Below, one piece after another: positions 46,836 through 54,690 of a DNA stretch of 64,000 bases; position 1 is the stretch's first letter; each line of letters starts with the position of its first letter. Source of the stretch: Amycolatopsis benzoatilytica AK 16/65 (GTDB taxonomy: Bacteria > Actinomycetota > Actinomycetes > Mycobacteriales > Pseudonocardiaceae); the NCBI RefSeq assembly GCF_000383915.1, contig NZ_KB912942.1, forward strand, positions 4,151,795-4,215,794, in the 5' to 3' direction. The position numbers and the translations under genes are program-made. Under the pieces are notes generated by a model. It was not told the DNA's origin, did not search any database, and saw only the letters and a program-made list of their open reading frames with translations.

Positions 46836-47792
46836 GTGCCCCGGGTGGATTCCGGTCAGCAGCGGGAAGGTCCGGCCGCGGCGGCTGCGCGGCTGACGGG
46901 CATGCGGGTGGTTTCCGCTCGCCCGATGGGCACTGTCAGTGATATAGTGATTACTGACGGAGATCAGAGTTACGAGGTCGTGGTCAAGCGGGCGCACGCG
47001 CCAGGTGCGGCGCTGGCGGAGGCGGCCGGACTGCGCTGGCTGGCGGCGGCGGGTGCGGTGCGGGTGGCTCGGGTGCGCGGTGCGGACGAGGCGTGGCTTG
47101 TCGTGGATCGGGTCGGCGCGGGTTCTGGGTCGGCTGGTTCTGGAGCGGGTGCTGGCGAGGCTGGCGAGGCTGGCGAGGCTGGCGAGGCTGGCGAGGCTGG
47201 CGAGGTCACGGTGCCCGGGTCTGCGCGAGCGGAGGCGTTCGGGCGGGATCTCGCCCGGATGCAGGTTGCTGGCGCACCGGCGTTCGGTGCCGCTCCCCCA
47301 GGCGGCATGACCGAGGCATGGATCGGGACAGCGCCGATGCGGAACGTTGCGGGCGAGTCGTGGCCGGAGTGGTACGCCGAGCATCGGGTCCAGCCATACG
47401 TCCGGATGGCGGTCGACGCCGGGATGCTCGACGCGCCGGCCTTCGAGCGCGCCATCGCCCGGATCCCGGCGATGGCCGGACCGCCGGAACCGCCGGCCCG
47501 GCTGCACGGCGACCTCTGGAGCGGGAACGTGCTGTGGGACGGCCGGGGTGCGGTGTTGATCGATCCGGCCGCACACGGCGGCCACCGCGAGACGGACCTG
47601 GCGATGCTTCGCCTGTTCGGATGCCCTGGGCTGGAGCGGATCATCGCCGCCTATGACGAGGTCGCGCCGCTGGCGGAGGGCTGCCGCGAGCGGATCGGGT
47701 TGCATCAGCTATTCCCGCTGCTGGTGCACACTGTCCTGTTCGGACAGTCGTATGCCGGGCAAGCGGTGGCTGCGGCCCGCTCGCTCGGGTAA
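46836..47792 (+). CDS. Fructosamine kinase-family protein
   Basis: 318 residues. Aminoglycoside-phosphotransferase-like fold: a VVKRA Lys in the N lobe, the catalytic loop RLHGDLWSGNVLW, and ID PAAHGGHRETDLAM as the Mg-binding segment, both diagnostic of fructosamine kinases (FN3K/YniA), which phosphorylate ketoamines for deglycation. Two oddities: a (Ala-Gly-Glu)6 insert from a 9-bp tandem repeat, and an AT-rich stretch of rare codons around 46932-46970, unlike the rest. Start GTG 46836 or 46845. Divergent from tig. Confidence 0.85.
   Translation: MPRVDSGQQREGPAAAAARLTGMRVVSARPMGTVSDIVITDGDQSYEVVVKRAHAPGAALAEAAGLRWLAAAGAVRVARVRGADEAWLVVDRVGAGSGSAGSGAGAGEAGEAGEAGEAGEAGEVTVPGSARAEAFGRDLARMQVAGAPAFGAAPPGGMTEAWIGTAPMRNVAGESWPEWYAEHRVQPYVRMAVDAGMLDAPAFERAIARIPAMAGPPEPPARLHGDLWSGNVLWDGRGAVLIDPAAHGGHRETDLAMLRLFGCPGLERIIAAYDEVAPLAEGCRERIGLHQLFPLLVHTVLFGQSYAGQAVAAARSLG
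47151..47204 (+). repeat. Six tandem 9-bp repeats inside the fructosamine-kinase gene
   Basis: GCTGGCGAG repeated six times, in frame, encoding Ala-Gly-Glu units in a loop between the N-lobe strands and the middle domain. A 9-bp unit preserves the frame at any copy number, so length may vary between strains. Confidence 0.9.
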
Positions 47793-48046: not shown

Positions 48047-48073
48047 CACAGCCGGCTCACAGGAAGCACACAT
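48047..48073 (+). promoter_or_regulatory. Tandem direct-repeat operator, site 1 (sensor kinase gene)
   Basis: CACAG at 48047, CACAG at 48058 and CACAT at 48069: three units with an exact 11-bp period, ending 34 nt before the ATG. The identical layout recurs at 49623 and 51535. Eleven-base direct repeats are typical of OmpR/PhoB-type response regulators. The 47793-48046 part of this gap holds no gene that I can see. Confidence 0.75.
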
Positions 48074-48107
48074 CGCGCCCACACCGTCGCCACGCACGCT
48101 CGGGAGC

Positions 48108-49643
48108 ATGAGTCTTCGCACCAGGATCGCGGCTGCCCGGATGGGGCGGCGGTCGTTGCGCGCGAAACTCACCGTGTCCGTCGTGGTGCTCTTGTCGCTG
48201 GTGTGCCTGGTAATCGGAGTCGCCAGCGAGTTCGCGCTGCGTGCCTTCCTGATCTCCCAGACCGACGGCCAGCTGTCCGCCGCGGCCACCCGGGCGCTGG
48301 ATTTCGCCACCCGGGGCGGTCCGCCGGGCGACGGCGGGCGCAATCCGCTCGACGCGCCCGGCCAAGGGGCGGGCACGGTCAACGCGCACTTCGCCGACGG
48401 GATCCTCGTCGACGGCGGATCCCTCTCCCCGCACGGCCAGCGCATCACCCTCACCTCCGACGAACTCGCTGTCCTGCAAAGCCTTCCCGCCGACGGCCGT
48501 GCCTACAGCCGACCGCTGGGCACGCTCGGCGACTACCGGCTCACCGCGTTTCCCATCCCGGACGGCGTCGTCGTCACCGGTGTTCCGCTGGCACCGGTGC
48601 AGCAGACGCTGCTGACCGTCGGGCTGATTCTGTTCGGCGTCGCGGCGGCCGGTGTCACTGGCGCGGCGATGCTCGGCGCGTTCGCGGTGCGCCGCACCCT
48701 CCGTCCGCTCGAGCGGGTGGCGGAAACCGCTTCGCGGGTGTCCGAGTTGCCGTTGGATCGCGGCGATGTCGACTTGACGGTGCGCGTTCCCGATCAGGAC
48801 ACCGACCCGCGGACCGAGGTCGGCCAGGTCGGAGCGGCGCTGAACCACATGCTCGGCCATATCTCGTCCGCGCTCGAGGCTCGGCACGCCAGCGAACTGC
48901 GCGTCCGCCGGTTCGTCGCGGACGCCAGCCACGAGCTGCGCACGCCGCTCGCCGCGATCCGCGGGTATGCCGAGCTCGCGGGCCGGTCCGGGCGGGCCGG
49001 AGGCCAGGTCTCGCCGGACGTCGCGCGGTCGATGACGCGCATCGAGTCCGAAGCGGACCGGATGACGACGCTCGTCGAGGACCTCCTCCTGCTCGCGCGC
49101 CTCGACGCCGGGCGCCCGCTCGACTTCGCCGAGGTCGACCTCACCCGTCTCGTCGCGGACGCGGTCGGCGACGCGCACGTGGCCGGTCCCCACCACGTCT
49201 GGCAGCTGCGGCTTCCGGATGAGCCGATCCTCGTCCTCGGCGACGTCCAGCGCCTGCACCAGGTGCTGTCCAACCTGCTGACGAACGCCCGGGTGCACAC
49301 GCCGCCGGGGTCGACCGTCGTCACGGCGCTCGCCAGGTCGGCGGACGGCAGCGCGGTCGTGACCGTGACCGACAACGGGCCGGGCATTCCCGAGGAGCTG
49401 CAGCCGGCGGTGTTCGAACGGTTTGCCCGCGGCGATTCGTCCCGGTCCCGTGCGGCCGGGTCGACCGGGCTCGGCCTGGCGATCGCGGCTGCGGTGGTCA
49501 GCGCGCACCGCGGCGCCATCGAGATGCGCAGCCAGCCGGGGCACACCGAGTTCGCGGTGCGGCTGCCGACCGCGGTTCCGGCGCAGCGACCGCCGCTCGA
49601 GGTCGCGCGTGACCCCAGGTCGCACAGCGGGCACACAGGGTAG
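48108..49643 (+). CDS. Sensor histidine kinase (HAMP, HisKA, HATPase), no adjacent response regulator
   Basis: 511 residues. Two membrane helices (about 22-46 and 163-188) flank a ~115-residue extracytoplasmic domain, followed by HAMP (~188-250), HisKA with phospho-acceptor His in ADASHELRTPLAAIRGYAEL, N box NLLTNARVHTPP, G1 DNGPGIPEE and G2 GSTGLGLAIAA. Relatives normally have the response regulator gene directly upstream; here that place is empty. ATG 48108 follows CGGGAG closely. Carries operator site 1, and its targets are probably the following glycosyltransferase genes. Short N-terminal Arg-rich cytoplasmic tail. Confidence 0.92.
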   Translation: MSLRTRIAAARMGRRSLRAKLTVSVVVLLSLVCLVIGVASEFALRAFLISQTDGQLSAAATRALDFATRGGPPGDGGRNPLDAPGQGAGTVNAHFADGILVDGGSLSPHGQRITLTSDELAVLQSLPADGRAYSRPLGTLGDYRLTAFPIPDGVVVTGVPLAPVQQTLLTVGLILFGVAAAGVTGAAMLGAFAVRRTLRPLERVAETASRVSELPLDRGDVDLTVRVPDQDTDPRTEVGQVGAALNHMLGHISSALEARHASELRVRRFVADASHELRTPLAAIRGYAELAGRSGRAGGQVSPDVARSMTRIESEADRMTTLVEDLLLLARLDAGRPLDFAEVDLTRLVADAVGDAHVAGPHHVWQLRLPDEPILVLGDVQRLHQVLSNLLTNARVHTPPGSTVVTALARSADGSAVVTVTDNGPGIPEELQPAVFERFARGDSSRSRAAGSTGLGLAIAAAVVSAHRGAIEMRSQPGHTEFAVRLPTAVPAQRPPLEVARDPRSHSGHTG

Positions 49644-49649
49644 GCACAT
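49623..49649 (+). promoter_or_regulatory. Tandem direct-repeat operator, site 2 (first GT39 gene)
   Basis: CACAG at 49623, CACAG at 49634, CACAT at 49645, again 11-bp spaced, ending 33 nt before the ATG of the first GT39 gene and overlapping the kinase stop region. Shows that the gene after the kinase has its own, equally controlled promoter. Confidence 0.8.
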
Positions 49650-49682
49650 GCCGGCCCCAGGTCCGGCCGCAACGCTGCTGGC

Positions 49683-51503
49683 ATGACCGCAGTCGCGACC
49701 CCTGATGCTGCCCCGAGCGCGCCCGCCGCACGCCCCGCACCGAGGTGGGTCCGGCCCTCTCTCGCCGTCCTCCTCGTCGCGACCGCGGCGCTCTACTTGT
49801 GGGACCTCAGCGCCTCCGGCTGGGCCAACGCGTTCTACTCCGCCGCCGCGCAAGCCGGGTCGCAAAGCTGGAAGGCGCTGTTCTTCGGCTCCAGCGATGC
49901 GGCCAACGGAATCACGGTGGACAAGACGCCGGCCGCGCTGTGGGTGATGAGCCTTTCGGCGCGGTTGTTCGGTGTGAGCGCGTGGAGCATTCTCGTGCCG
50001 CAAGCCTTGATGGGGGTCGGTTCGACCTGGCTGCTGTATGCGACCGTCCGACGTGCTTCCGGCGCGGCGGCCGGGCTGATCGCCGGCGCGGTGCTGACGC
50101 TCACCCCAGCGGCAGCGTTGATCTTCCGGTTCAACAACCCGGACGCATTGCTCGTGCTTCTGCTCGTCGCAGGGGCTTACGCGACGGTGCGCGCGATCGA
50201 GAAGGCCAGCCCGAGTTGGCTGGCACTGGCCGGAGTCGCGGTCGGATTCGGTTTCCTCGCCAAGATGCTGCAAGCTTTTCTGGTGCTGCCCGCGTTCGCG
50301 CTGGCCTACCTCGTCGCGGCGCCGGCACCGGTTGGCAAGCGGTTGCTGCATCTGCTCGCTGGGCTGGGCGCGATCGTCGCCTCCGCTGGCTGGTACCTCG
50401 CGGCGGTGGCGTGGTGGCCGGCCGCGGACCGGCCCTACATCGGCGGGTCGCAGCACAACAGCCTCCTCGAACTCACCTTGGGGTACAACGGTTTCGGCCG
50501 GATCACCGGCGACGAGACCGGCAGCGTCGGCGGCAGCCGCGGCGGCGGGTGGGGCAGCACGGGGCTGTTCCGGTTGTTCGGCAGCGAAATGGCCGGCGGC
50601 ATCGCCTGGCTGTTGCCCGCCGCGGTGCTCGGGCTCGCGGCAGGGCTGTGGTTCACCCGCCGCGCGCCTCGTACCGACCGCGGTCGCGCCTCGCTGCTGC
50701 TCTGGGGCGGCTGGCTGCTGATCACCGCGGCGGTGTTCAGCTTCATGGGCGGCATCATCCACCCCTACTACACCGTCGCGCTGGCCCCGGCGATCGCCGC
50801 GCTGGTCGGCATCGCCGCGGTCCAGCTGTGGCGGATCCGCCGCGACCCGACGGCCATCGGCCTGCTCAGCGGCGGAGTCGCGCTGACGACCGTGACCTCG
50901 TACCTGCTGCTGAACGGTTCGTGGCAGCCGTGGCTCGCTCCGACGGTGCTCGTCCTCGGGATTTTCTCCGCCATCGCCCTGTTTTTCGTCCAGCAGTTCG
51001 GCCGGATCGCCGCCGTCCTCGGGCTGGTCGTACTGCTCGCCGGGACCGGCGCGTACAGCGTCGCTACCGCGGCGACCCCGCACAGCGGCGCGATCCCGTC
51101 TGCCGGTCCTAGCACCAGGCGCATGTTCGGCGGCGGTGCGGGCGGGCTGCTCGGTGCGTCCGAGGCGGGACCGAACCTCACCGCGTTGCTGCAGCAGTCC
51201 GGCAACCACCGGTGGGCGGCAGCGACGGTCGGGTCCAACAACGCGGCCGGGTATCAGCTCGGCAGCGGCAAACCGGTGCTGGCGGTAGGCGGATTCAACG
51301 GCACCGACCCGTACCCGACCTTGGAGCAGTTCGAGCAGTACGTCCGAGACGGGCAAATCCGCTATTTCCTCGGCGAGGGCATGACGATGCGCGGGGCCAG
51401 CAGCAGCGGCAGCGACAACGCCGAGCAGATCGCGCAGTGGGTGGCGGAAAACTACCGATCGACCACAGTGGACGGGGTGGCGGTGTACGACCTGGCTGGC
51501 TGA
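49683..51503 (+). CDS. GT39-family membrane glycosyltransferase (YkcB/ArnT-like), first copy
   Basis: 606 residues with about 12 membrane spans, then a C-terminal extracytoplasmic domain of ~150 residues (NHRWAAATVGSNNAAGYQL to the end). TVDKTPAALWV and FRFNNPDALL are landmarks of the dolichol/polyprenyl-phosphate-sugar-dependent GT39/PMT_2 family. A glycine-rich periplasmic loop (GSVGGSRGGGWGS) interrupts the channel region. It uses a polyprenyl-phosphate sugar, probably made by the next gene, to modify a cell-envelope acceptor. ATG at 49683. Its paralogue lies two genes on. Confidence 0.88.
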   Translation: MTAVATPDAAPSAPAARPAPRWVRPSLAVLLVATAALYLWDLSASGWANAFYSAAAQAGSQSWKALFFGSSDAANGITVDKTPAALWVMSLSARLFGVSAWSILVPQALMGVGSTWLLYATVRRASGAAAGLIAGAVLTLTPAAALIFRFNNPDALLVLLLVAGAYATVRAIEKASPSWLALAGVAVGFGFLAKMLQAFLVLPAFALAYLVAAPAPVGKRLLHLLAGLGAIVASAGWYLAAVAWWPAADRPYIGGSQHNSLLELTLGYNGFGRITGDETGSVGGSRGGGWGSTGLFRLFGSEMAGGIAWLLPAAVLGLAAGLWFTRRAPRTDRGRASLLLWGGWLLITAAVFSFMGGIIHPYYTVALAPAIAALVGIAAVQLWRIRRDPTAIGLLSGGVALTTVTSYLLLNGSWQPWLAPTVLVLGIFSAIALFFVQQFGRIAAVLGLVVLLAGTGAYSVATAATPHSGAIPSAGPSTRRMFGGGAGGLLGASEAGPNLTALLQQSGNHRWAAATVGSNNAAGYQLGSGKPVLAVGGFNGTDPYPTLEQFEQYVRDGQIRYFLGEGMTMRGASSSGSDNAEQIAQWVAENYRSTTVDGVAVYDLAG

Positions 51504-51534
51504 GTTCCGTTTGCGCGGCCGAGACGCGCGTTCG

Positions 51535-51561
51535 CACAGGACAGCCACAGGAACACCACAT
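51535..51561 (+). promoter_or_regulatory. Tandem direct-repeat operator, site 3 (GT2/GtrA gene)
   Basis: CACAG at 51535, CACAG at 51546, CACAT at 51557, 11-bp period, ending 34 nt before the ATG at 51596. Its match to sites 1 and 2 in both sequence and distance supports 51596 rather than the upstream ATG at 51560, which lies inside the operator. Confidence 0.8.
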
Positions 51562-51595
51562 GGCCGCCAAAGCCCAGCGGACGACGGTAGCAGCC

Positions 51596-52861
51596 ATGAA
51601 CGCCACCGCCCCCTCCCGCAGCGGCGCACCGCGGCCCGGCACGACACCGGTCGGCCTTGGCGGGCCTCAGCCCGTGCTGGACGTCGTCATCCCGGTCTAC
51701 AACGAGGAAACCGACCTGGAGCGGTGCATCCGCCGGCTCCGGGCGCACCTCGCCGAACGCGCCGGGTATCCGTACCGGATCACCGTCGCGGACAACGCGA
51801 GCACGGACAAGACTCTCGCCGTCGCCGAACGCCTGGCCCGGGAGTTCCCCGAGGTCACGGTGCGCCACCTGGACGAGAAGGGCCGAGGCCGGGCGCTGCG
51901 CACCGTCTGGTCCGCCTCCGACGCGGCCGTGCTCGCCTACATGGACGTCGACCTGTCGACCGACCTCGCCGCGCTGGACCCGCTCGTCGCGCCGCTGCTG
52001 TCCGGGCACTCGGACGTAGCGATCGGCAGCCGGCTGGCGAGAGGCGCTCGCGTGGTGCGCGGCCCGAAGCGCGAGTTCATTTCCCGTTGCTACAACCTGA
52101 TTCTGCGCGGCACGCTCGCCGCGAAGTTCTCCGACGCGCAATGCGGGTTCAAAGCGATCCGCGCCGACGTCGCCCGCGCGCTGCTCCCCCACGTGCGAGA
52201 CACCGGCTGGTTCTTCGACACCGAACTGCTCGTCCTCGCCCAGCGCGCCGGACTCCGGATCCACGAGGTGCCGGTGGACTGGGTCGACGACCTGGATTCG
52301 TCGGTCGATCTCATCGCCACCGCGACCGCCGACCTCAAGGGCATCGCGCGAGTCACCCGGGCCACCCTCACCGGCGAAATCCCGGTGCACCGGCTGCGCG
52401 AACAGCTCGGCCGCGAACCGATCGGAGTGGAGGCCGCCGGCGTGTCCCCCAGCCTGGTCAAGCAGCTCGTGCGGTTCGCCGCGGTCGGCGTCGCCAGCAC
52501 CGTCGCGTACCTGCTGCTTTTCCTGCTGCTGCGGACAATGGCCGGCGCGCAGGCCGCCAATTTCACCGCGCTGCTCGTCACCGCGATCGCGAACACCGCG
52601 GTCAACCGGCGCGTGACGTTCGGCGTGCGCGGGCGAGCCGGAGCGGGGCGGCACCAGTTCGAAGGGCTGATCGTGTTCGGTCTCGGACTGGCGCTGACCA
52701 GCGGTTCGCTCTTCCTGCTCAACCACACCACCCATCCCGGGCTGGTGCTGGAGACCGTCGTGCTCGTGCTGGCGAACCTCGCCGCCACCGTGCTCCGCTT
52801 CCTGCTCTTGCGCGGGTGGGTCTTCAACCCGCGCCGTGCCGCCGCCGAGGAGCCTTCGTGA
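51596..52861 (+). CDS. Bifunctional GT2 glycosyltransferase / GtrA-like flippase fusion
   Basis: 421 residues. Residues 1-250 are a GT2 polyprenyl-phosphate sugar transferase: LDVVIPVYNEETDLERC, VADNASTDKT, AYMDVDLSTD (metal-binding DxD), AIGSRLARGARV, DAQCGFKAIR. Residues ~285-415 hold four membrane helices of the GtrA type (LVRFAAVGVASTVAYLLLF), thought to flip the lipid-linked sugar. A complete donor-supply unit in one chain. The following GT39 gene begins GTG within its stop (GTGA). Confidence 0.9.
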   Translation: MNATAPSRSGAPRPGTTPVGLGGPQPVLDVVIPVYNEETDLERCIRRLRAHLAERAGYPYRITVADNASTDKTLAVAERLAREFPEVTVRHLDEKGRGRALRTVWSASDAAVLAYMDVDLSTDLAALDPLVAPLLSGHSDVAIGSRLARGARVVRGPKREFISRCYNLILRGTLAAKFSDAQCGFKAIRADVARALLPHVRDTGWFFDTELLVLAQRAGLRIHEVPVDWVDDLDSSVDLIATATADLKGIARVTRATLTGEIPVHRLREQLGREPIGVEAAGVSPSLVKQLVRFAAVGVASTVAYLLLFLLLRTMAGAQAANFTALLVTAIANTAVNRRVTFGVRGRAGAGRHQFEGLIVFGLGLALTSGSLFLLNHTTHPGLVLETVVLVLANLAATVLRFLLLRGWVFNPRRAAAEEPS

Positions 52862-54690
52862 CCACTGTCCTGACCCGCCGCCACCCTGCCCCGGGCGCCC
52901 CGGCGCGCGGTCCCGCCCGGCCGCGCTGGGTCCGGCCGTCGGTGTTCGGTCTCCTGGCGCTGACCGCTGTCCTGTACTTCTGGAACCTGACCGCATCCGG
53001 GTTCGGCAACTCCTTCTACGCGGCGGCCGTGCAATCCGGCACGCAGAGCGCGAAGGCGTGGCTGTTCGGCTCGCTCGACGCCGGGAACGTGATCACTGTC
53101 GACAAACCGCCCGCCGCATTGTGGGTGGGGACGGCATTCGCCCGGATCTTCGGATTCTCCAGCTTCACCGTCCTGGCACCGCAAGCCTTGATGGGCGTCG
53201 GCGCGGTCGGGCTGCTGTACCTGACGGTGCGCCGCGTTTCCGGCCCGCTGCCCGGGTTGCTCGCCGGGGCGATGCTGGCGCTGACCCCGGTCGCCGCGCT
53301 GATGTTCCGGTTCAACAACCCGGACGCGCTGCTCACGCTGCTGCTGATCGCCGGCGCGTACTGCACGGTGCGGGCGATCGAGAAGGCCAGCCCGAAGTGG
53401 CTCGTTTTCGCCGGTGTGGCACTCGGTTTCGGGTTCCTGACGAAGATGATGCAGGCGTTCCTGGTGCTGCCCGCGTTCGCACTGGCGTACCTGGTCGCCG
53501 CGCCGGCCGGACTGGGCAAACGATTCCTGCACCTGCTCGCGGCGGGCGCGGCAGTGGTCCTGTCCGCGGGCTGGTTCGTGACTTTGGTGCAGCTGTGGCC
53601 GGCGGCTTCGCGTCCGTACATCGGCGGGTCGACCGGGAACAGCCTGCTGGAGCTGGCGCTCGGGTACAACGGGCTCGGCCGGATCTTCGGCGGCCAGGGC
53701 AACGGCGGCGGTGGCATGGGCGGCGGAATGGGTGCCGGCAACACCGCGTTCGGCGGGAGTTCCGGCCTGGGGCGGATGTTCGGCGCGAGCTTCGGCACCG
53801 AAATCTCCTGGCTGCTGCCCGCCGCGCTGATCGGCCTGGCGGCCGGCCTGTGGTTCACCCGGAGGGCCGTGCGCACCGACCGGACGCGTGCGTCGCTGCT
53901 GGTCTGGGGCGGCTGGCTGCTGGTGACTGGGCTGGTTTTCAGCTTCATGAGCGGCACCGTGCACCCGTACTACTCGGTGCAGCTCGCGCCCGCGATCGCC
54001 GCACTGGTCGCGATTTCCGGGCGCGCGCTGTGGCATGGCCGGGCACACCTCGCGCCGAGGCTGACGCTGGGCGGGATGATCGCGGCGACCGCGGGGTGGG
54101 ACTTCGTTCTCCTCGATCGCACGCCGGACTGGCTGCCCGCGTTGCGATGGATCGTCGTCCTGCTCGGGTTGCTCGTGAGCACCGTCGTGGTGGTCGGGCT
54201 GCCCCGAGCGCGGACGGTGCTGATCGGCGTGGCGGTGACGGTCGTCGCGACCCTCGGAATGTCGACGGCCGGGTATGCGCTGGAGACGGCTTCCTTGTCG
54301 CACAACGGTTCCATCCCTGTTTCAGGCCCGCGGACCACCGGGACGCGCGGTTTCGGCGGCGGCATGGACGAGACGAGCGGCGCCGTCGCGCAGTTGCTGG
54401 CCAGCACGACGACCAAGTGGGCGGCCGCGACGACCGGTTCGCAATCGGCGGCGAGCCTGGAACTGGCGAGCGGCAAACCGGTGATCGGCATCGGCGGCTG
54501 GGACGGCAGCGATCCGGCCCCGACGCTGGCGCAGTTCAAGCAGTACGTCGCGGCGGGCGAGATCGCCTACTACGTCGACGGCGGCCGCGGCGGCCCGGGT
54601 GGCGGATCCAGCGATATCGGCGAATGGGTGGCCGCGAACTTCACCGCGACCACGGTCGGCGCCGAAACTGTTTACCAGCTCACCCGGTGA
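52858..54690 (+). CDS. GT39-family membrane glycosyltransferase (YkcB/ArnT-like), second copy
   Basis: 610 residues, a clear paralogue of the protein at 49683: VRPSVFGLLALTAVLYFWNL, ITVDKPPAALWVGTAF, LMGVGAVGLLYLTVRR, FRFNNPDALLTLL, VHPYYSVQLAPAIAALV align without gaps. A Gly/Met-rich loop (GGGGMGGGMGAGNTAFGG) replaces the first copy's glycine loop, and the C-terminal extracytoplasmic domain ends TTVGAETVYQLTR. GTG start coupled to GT2/GtrA. Tandem duplication flanking the donor synthase. Confidence 0.88.
   Translation: MTTVLTRRHPAPGAPARGPARPRWVRPSVFGLLALTAVLYFWNLTASGFGNSFYAAAVQSGTQSAKAWLFGSLDAGNVITVDKPPAALWVGTAFARIFGFSSFTVLAPQALMGVGAVGLLYLTVRRVSGPLPGLLAGAMLALTPVAALMFRFNNPDALLTLLLIAGAYCTVRAIEKASPKWLVFAGVALGFGFLTKMMQAFLVLPAFALAYLVAAPAGLGKRFLHLLAAGAAVVLSAGWFVTLVQLWPAASRPYIGGSTGNSLLELALGYNGLGRIFGGQGNGGGGMGGGMGAGNTAFGGSSGLGRMFGASFGTEISWLLPAALIGLAAGLWFTRRAVRTDRTRASLLVWGGWLLVTGLVFSFMSGTVHPYYSVQLAPAIAALVAISGRALWHGRAHLAPRLTLGGMIAATAGWDFVLLDRTPDWLPALRWIVVLLGLLVSTVVVVGLPRARTVLIGVAVTVVATLGMSTAGYALETASLSHNGSIPVSGPRTTGTRGFGGGMDETSGAVAQLLASTTTKWAAATTGSQSAASLELASGKPVIGIGGWDGSDPAPTLAQFKQYVAAGEIAYYVDGGRGGPGGGSSDIGEWVAANFTATTVGAETVYQLTR

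Follow-up and report, generated by a model that had tools for sequence, protein, structure and literature searches.

Why do three genes of one actinobacterial cluster each carry the same tandem repeat at almost exactly the same distance before the start codon? The cluster lies in a 64,000-nucleotide (nt) stretch of the Amycolatopsis benzoatilytica AK 16/65 genome (contig NZ_KB912942.1, positions 4,151,795 to 4,215,794), which as a whole is called the window here. A first-pass annotation had reported three identical repeats with an 11-bp period, 33–34 nt before an ATG. Exact matches to CACAG-N6-CACAG-N6-CACAT were indeed found at 48047–48073, 49623–49649 and 51535–51561, all on the plus strand, and at no other place on either strand of the window. 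The gap between the third half-site and the ATG is 34, 33 and 34 nt (ATG at 48108, 49683 and 51596), and the three genes that follow encode an orphan sensor histidine kinase, a GT39-type glycosyltransferase and a GT2 glycosyltransferase fused to a GtrA-type domain. We consider, with a probability of roughly 0.8, that the sites are operators of a single PhoP-like regulator of the OmpR family, which would be encoded at a distant locus, receive signals from two kinases, and activate leaderless mRNAs for the kinase, GT39 and GT2-GtrA proteins.

A repeat of this kind could also be a product of chance, or a coding or translation signal rather than an operator, and the second site does overlap the end of the kinase gene. 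We attach practically no weight to this explanation. The full pattern did not occur in any of 100 dinucleotide shuffles of the window. When the form CACAGN6CACAGN6CACA was searched for in the whole genome (8,704,271 bp, one contig), only five exact matches were obtained, three of them being the window sites, whereas the reversed-pattern control gave none; the full form is rare, and its five sites in 8.70 Mb lie above background. Looser searches were much less specific, with 17 genome matches (reversed control, 9) when two half-sites were required, and 38 (reversed control, 26) when three half-sites with at most two mismatches were allowed. A perfect CACAG-N6-CACAG-N6-CACAT array was also seen on the minus strand at G000:C1:3339540–3339565 (L041), with an extra CACAG nearby but without a convincing gene at the distance where one would be expected; it may possibly serve a small or non-coding transcript. 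A match at 7178049–7178074 (minus strand) was taken as background, being near TCCACA-type repeats and having no start codon at the expected distances.

The repeats and their register held as first described, but their extent did not: the annotation had counted three half-sites, at least four were found, and a hexamer of the form NANNNT had also been missed. We predict operator 1 at 48047..48084 (CACAG at 48047 and 48058, CACAT at 48069, CACAC at 48080, with a period of 11), operator 2 at 49623..49660 (CACAG at 49623 and 49634, CACAT at 49645, CCCAG at 49656), which runs over the 3′ end of the kinase gene, and operator 3 at 51535..51572 (CACAG at 51535 and 51546, CACAT at 51557, CAAAG at 51568), all on the plus strand. 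On the same strand, 10 nt past each fourth half-site, lies a −10-like hexamer, CACGCT at 48095..48100, AACGCT at 49671..49676 and GACGGT at 51583..51588; 6–7 nt then follow before the ATG, whose A is 8, 7 and 8 nt past the last base of the respective hexamer. The NANNNT hexamer is usually placed at −12 to −7. Because we placed it there, the start point would coincide with the A of the ATG or precede it by 1 nt, and the spacing suggests that the three operator-bearing genes of the window are transcribed as leaderless mRNAs. By the same register, the −35 position is taken up by half-site 3, with half-site 4 falling in the interval between −35 and −10. For Streptomyces griseus, the available part of PMC8914203 gives ANNNT as the mapped −10 motif and treats leaderless mRNAs (0–10 nt) as a separate class. 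The earlier proposal, in which near-leaderless promoters have a direct repeat of the OmpR/PhoB type over their −35 region, is, as far as sequence can tell, supported.

Conservation upstream of orthologues, which had been suggested as a test of the pattern, was analyzed in congeneric genomes. Eighty genomes, including that of A. benzoatilytica, were searched with the first GT39; 75 matched at E ≤ 1e-100, and from these we chose 20 larger loci, mostly among the better matches. Together with the window they provided 61 promoters: 20 of kinase genes (orphan kinases only, from 19 congeneric loci and the window), 21 of first GT39 genes and 20 of GT2 genes, the stretch of L174 ending upstream of its GT2 gene. 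The triple array scored at least 13/15 in 61/61 promoters (kinase 20/20, first GT39 21/21, GT2 20/20). Both −10 bases, A and T, were at their fixed places in 59/61, while these bases make up 17% and 8.5%, respectively, of the positions between array and ATG. An in-frame ATG followed half-site 3 by 33–34 nt in 59/61, and by 32 nt in the GT39 promoter of L178. In 60 of the promoters, half-sites 1 and 2 and the CACA of half-site 3 were kept at 98–100% per column and the N6 spacers at 32–83%; values of 97–100% were reached in half-site 4 by just two letters, the initial C and the A at the fourth place. The fifth letter of half-site 3 is variable (CACA[A/T/C] in 59/61, CATAC in one and CACAG in one), and half-site 4 tends to be specific to the promoter type, being CACAC or CATAC before 20/20 kinase genes, CCCAG before 19/21 GT39 genes and CAAAG before 16/20 GT2 genes. 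That the array persists in coding and non-coding promoter sequence alike, while its spacers drift, argues further against a chance or coding origin. The start of the GT2 gene at 51596 is likewise backed by an in-frame ATG 33–34 nt past half-site 3, kept in 20/20 promoters. An alternative GT2 start at ATG 51560 was rejected, since half-site 3 of the congeners lacks such an ATG and the conserved one lies 33–34 nt further on.

The position of the array bears on the direction of regulation. OmpR-family regulators can repress, and the same regulator might bind these sites as a repressor or dual regulator, with half-sites 3 and 4 blocking RNA polymerase at the −35 region and the spacer; the location of half-site 4 between −35 and −10 would suit a repressor and speaks against activation. 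We nevertheless regard repression as improbable. The consensus of 60 promoters contains no TTGAC-like −35 element, the corresponding columns being half-site 3 and variable spacer, and such promoters should be weak without an activator. A single fixed distance from the −10 element is typical of PhoB activation, and the array keeps one fixed distance here. We infer that the regulator is an activator.

No particular regulator had been named in the first-pass annotation, and the sequence evidence favours a PhoP-like response regulator encoded 3.34 Mb from the window cluster. Array matches were clustered at 7.544–7.547 Mb, where an OmpR-family regulator gene (G000:C1:7544283–7545035; L040:6284–7036), a kinase gene and another YkcB-type GT39 gene lie together. 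In the promoter of the regulator gene, CACAG-N6-CACAG-N6-CACAG is found 33 nt upstream of the ATG. When 30 loci were scored, out of 51 Trans_reg_C matches in the genome, the array reached 15/15 upstream of this regulator and at best 11/15 in the other 29. A divergent small glycine-rich gene adjoining the regulator has two good half-sites. The best relative of the regulator with a solved structure is Mycobacterium tuberculosis PhoP, at 258 bits (PrrA, 190). PhoP binds TCACAGC-N4-TCACAGC as a tandem dimer, three or four repeats being bound more tightly than two, and six base-contact residues are listed for it (PMC4832192, in the portion available). Four of these six are identical in the regulator (N212, E215, Y217 and Y220) and a V to I exchange is conservative; the recognition helix reads ANIVELYISYLRKK in the regulator and VNVVESYVSYLRRK in M. 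tuberculosis PhoP. The statement in the annotation that no description of such an operator exists does not stand, because the M. tuberculosis PhoP repeat has the same core and the same 11-bp period, at least as presented in the accessible parts of PMC4832192 and PMC9019756.

Another DNA-binding protein might bind the window sites instead, the obvious candidate being L017, a paralogue in the same genome that is itself PhoP-like (248 bits to PhoP) and 59% identical to the favoured regulator. We think this very unlikely. There is no array before the L017 gene (9/15), its recognition helix, SNVVELAVSRLRRK, lacks both tyrosine contacts, and strong half-site pairs stand before 79/80 relatives of the favoured regulator. 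Because L017 scores nearly as high against PhoP, we do not call the favoured regulator a PhoP orthologue; from their sequences, co-orthology of the two to PhoP is possible, the comparison having covered L017 among only three other regulators of the genome. The L017 gene (G000:C1 ~5.105–5.107 Mb) adjoins a kinase gene. At another locus (L050:6602–12176; G000:C1 ~1.537–1.542 Mb), a regulator and a kinase gene are divergent from a GT2 and a GT39 gene, and the best triple scores 11/15.

To place the favoured regulator in a wider frame, we collected regulator loci, 80 in all, across many genera of actinobacteria. Upstream of the regulator, the best triple scored 11–15/15 (mean 13.0), against 8–12 (mean 9.5) for the reversed control and 7–13 (mean 10.3) for the reverse complement. 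Half-site pairs of at least 9/10 were present before 79/80 regulators and 37/43 GT2 genes, and a strong pair was present before 0/74 kinase genes of these loci; the counts omit matches below 150 bits or starting after residue 60, which leaves 80 regulator, 74 kinase, 60 GT39 and 43 GT2 entries. A candidate in-frame start lay 44–45 nt after the pair in 55 regulator and 36 GT2 loci. The recognition helix is near-invariant, 79/80 being close variants of AN[VI]VELY[IV]SYLR[KR]K. The exception, L122 (8001–8745), departs inside the helix in a way that suggests a frame change in the record. A related kinase gene was found in 77/80 stretches, a GT39 or GT2 gene in 55/80 and both in 42/80. Some Streptomyces loci (within L107–L159, for example L118, L123 and L124) show an array variant with CACAG, GAAAG and CTCAG in 11-bp register before the regulator, whose recognition helix is nearly the same.

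Several observations weigh against the circuit proposed here. At 36 of the 80 regulator loci the triple scores only 11–12/15, a level reached or exceeded by 12/80 reversed and 40/80 reverse-complement controls. A strong pair stands before only 22 of 60 GT39 genes, and the GT39 gene linked to the regulator in A. benzoatilytica itself (L040:8573) has just two good half-sites, which stand 22 nt from the ATG. The fetched stretch contains no GT39 or GT2 gene at 25/80 loci (L135 and L150 being on 5.8- and 3.2-kb contigs), so that in some genera the targets of the regulator must be others or lie at a distance. Among the congeneric promoters, that of the L180 GT39 gene has neither an ATG at 32–35 nt nor the −10 spacing. 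The likeness to PhoP is likewise incomplete: the contact S216 is L in the regulator, half-site 3 does not end in G in 60/61 promoters, which makes the match to the PhoP box imperfect, and L017 is a second PhoP-like paralogue in the genome. Our confidence is lowered slightly because 25/80 loci lack a glycosyltransferase gene and, in 36/80, scores of the triple-array test fall within the range of the controls.

The orphan sensor histidine kinase (48108..49643, plus strand; HAMP, HisKA and HATPase_c domains) has no adjoining response regulator. Among its paralogues in the same genome it is closest to the kinase encoded next to the distant regulator (57% identity, 483 bits; next paralogue, 214), and the two hardly differ in sequence around the phosphoacceptor histidine. 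In a tree of 45 kinases, 19 orphan kinases formed one group with a support of 100/100; the 24 regulator-linked kinases in it were chosen by us from the 80 loci, and the L178 kinase, which is read in two pieces, was left out because of its length. On this evidence, the distant regulator most likely receives signals from the orphan kinase as well as from its own kinase. The operators could belong to the distant regulator while the orphan kinase is paired with some other partner or with none: kinases of this sort can take part in other cascades (PMC9739842, as far as the available text goes), and the case for partnership is built from sequence. This arrangement deserves to be kept in mind, although we think it unlikely, given the 483 against 214 bits, the near-identity around the phosphoacceptor histidine, the fact that related kinases adjoin this regulator, and the operator array that the orphan kinase gene itself keeps. 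Matches to the orphan kinase in L178 (6535–7973; G060) fall in two frames, which may reflect a break or a sequencing error.

A kinase gene and a GT39 gene without an adjoining regulator gene were found in 19/20 congeneric loci, followed in 18 of those 19 by GT2 and second GT39 genes. The single exception, L180 (1/20), has regulator, kinase, GT39, GT2 and GT39 genes together in that order. The genomes of the 19 loci without a local regulator have one regulator gene each (E ≤ 1e-90), which lies either on a different contig or at a distance of 1.8 Mb or more. In 9/19 regulator-less loci, the small divergent gene, elsewhere the neighbour of the regulator, was still detected upstream of the kinase gene, and this retained gene looks like a footprint of regulator loss. 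A single regulator was found in 76/80 genomes, and the four lacking it are among the five without GT39; such co-absence would have a probability of 3e-6 if genomes were independent, which they are not. The ancestral unit was probably regulator-kinase-GT39-GT2-GT39, from which the window and the congeneric copies would have lost the regulator gene while keeping the operators and the kinase. In L171, L172, L176 and L177, an interval of ~5–8 kb lies between the first GT39 and the GT2 gene, and the GT2 gene still has its own operator array.

Downstream of the kinase gene, the window cluster comprises, all on the plus strand, the GT39-type GT-C glycosyltransferase (49683..51503; PMT_2 and YkcB_C domains), the GT2 glycosyltransferase fused to a GtrA/DPMS membrane domain according to its domain matches (51596..52861), and a second GT39-type glycosyltransferase (52858..54690; PMT_2 and YkcB_C), whose GTG start overlaps the GT2 stop codon as GTGA. 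The cluster proteins match PF00535, PF04138 and PF13231, the set of a GT-A synthase, a GtrA flippase and a GT-C transferase being present. No operator array lies upstream of the second GT39 gene (GTG at 52858) in the window, and its counterparts scored 7–9/15 in 20/20 loci, not above the reversed control (7–10). Upstream of the cluster, at 47151–47205, about six tandem 9-bp units (GCTGGCGAG) lie within a fructosamine-kinase-like gene and encode repeated Gly-Glu-Ala.

The array is not confined to these genes. A gene for a HlyD/MacA-like adaptor (6295570–6296832, minus strand; L045) has an array of 13–14/15 in 30/30 loci against 9–11 for the reversed control, these loci including that of A. benzoatilytica and being drawn from 43 matching genomes among 60 searched. 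The ATG is at 33–34 nt, as listed for 28 loci and as visible in the sequence of the other two. To judge from these arrays, the adaptor gene likely belongs to the regulon as well. An array of two half-sites also stands before a rhomboid-like gene (6387744), at 44 nt from the ATG; in 30 congeneric loci its best triples scored 8–13/15, the reversed control giving 8–10.

The circuit that we propose would work as follows. Phosphorylated regulator monomers would load head to tail onto four half-sites spaced by 11 bp. The bound array would end ~22 nt upstream of the start point and stand in for the absent −35 contact, the −10 element (NANNNT) setting the start point at the ATG or 1 nt before it, so that leaderless mRNAs would be made. 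These would encode the orphan kinase, GT39 and GT2-GtrA, with the second GT39 probably being co-translated. Control by the regulator would extend to its own gene, and the orphan kinase and the regulator's own kinase probably feed this one regulator. The output would be a sugar added to an envelope polymer through a polyprenyl-phosphate carrier. The sites, their spacing and conservation, the gene orders and the homologies are observed in the sequences; binding, the direction of activation, the start points, phosphotransfer between the presumed partners, and the sugar substrate and its acceptor are parts that the model would supply.

The operator is of a kind already known, PhoP-like in its core, its period and the likeness of its predicted regulator, and by the sequence comparisons above the array is real, conserved and functional-looking. 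With the M. tuberculosis PhoP operator, as covered by the available part of PMC4832192, it shares the CACAG core, the 11-bp period (a 7-bp motif and a 4-bp spacer), head-to-tail half-sites and a PhoP-like regulator. It differs in its four half-sites, which stand at a single distance from the ATG, in the variable flanking T and C of TCACAGC with half-site 3 ending in A, T or C, in the one S to L contact, and in its targets, which are glycosyltransferase and kinase genes. The regulator of the Streptomyces PHO box is the phosphate PhoP, a different protein from the regulator considered here. That box is also bound by an OmpR-family regulator at direct repeats with an 11-bp period, but the repeats are GTTCACC and not CACAG (PMC9019756, part of the text), and identity with it was rejected. 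CutRS was rejected as a counterpart too, since the CutR motif TAWATAAA, as given in the accessible part of PMC12802291, is not matched by the window sites, and so was HexRK-hexSDF of Clostridioides difficile, whose enzymes are of other kinds in the available account (PMC10128005).

Two-component control of such enzymes has precedents. The Bacillus subtilis glycosyltransferase operons ykcBC and ykoST are under two-component systems (YclJ and YrkP regulons; YkoH-YkoG), according to the portion of PMC5836110 at hand. There, as here, a GT2 and GT-C pair is under two-component control, and the GT39 proteins of the window carry YkcB_C; regulators and operons, however, are others, and the theme is therefore known whereas the circuit here is distinct. 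A scheme with two kinases and one response regulator, as we propose, resembles AbrC1/C2/C3 of Streptomyces coelicolor, but that system, in the part of PMC9739842 available, is one gene triad with a NarL-type regulator, whereas the one proposed here is split over 3.34 Mb and has an OmpR-type regulator. Multi-component transmembrane glycosylation systems likewise combine a GT-A sugar-lipid synthase, a GtrA-type flippase and a GT-C transferase (PMC8035078, in the extract available); here, GT2 and GtrA are fused, there are two GT-C enzymes, and the host is an actinobacterium. Within the titles and opening abstract text of the open-licence literature, no description of the regulon was found, most subscription papers and preprints lying outside this scope. 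As far as that literature shows, the regulon, the fixed spacing to the ATG and the local loss of the regulator appear to be new.

In this way, three short DNA sites yield a candidate regulator, a regulon and a candidate partner for an orphan kinase. In its broadest form, the proposal is of an Actinobacteria-wide regulon joining a two-component system to glycosylation, in which the distance between operator and ATG would be set by leaderless transcription, which in one genus would have become a regulator-less cluster within a two-kinase circuit split over megabases, and which would reach the HlyD/MacA-like adaptor; we hold the odds of this to be slightly in its favour. PhoP-type regulators are best known from mycobacterial work. 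In many actinobacteria, including Streptomyces and Amycolatopsis, the present results would link them to a glycosylation system of the envelope type, and the fixed spacing would offer a clean natural case for the action of an OmpR-family regulator at leaderless promoters.

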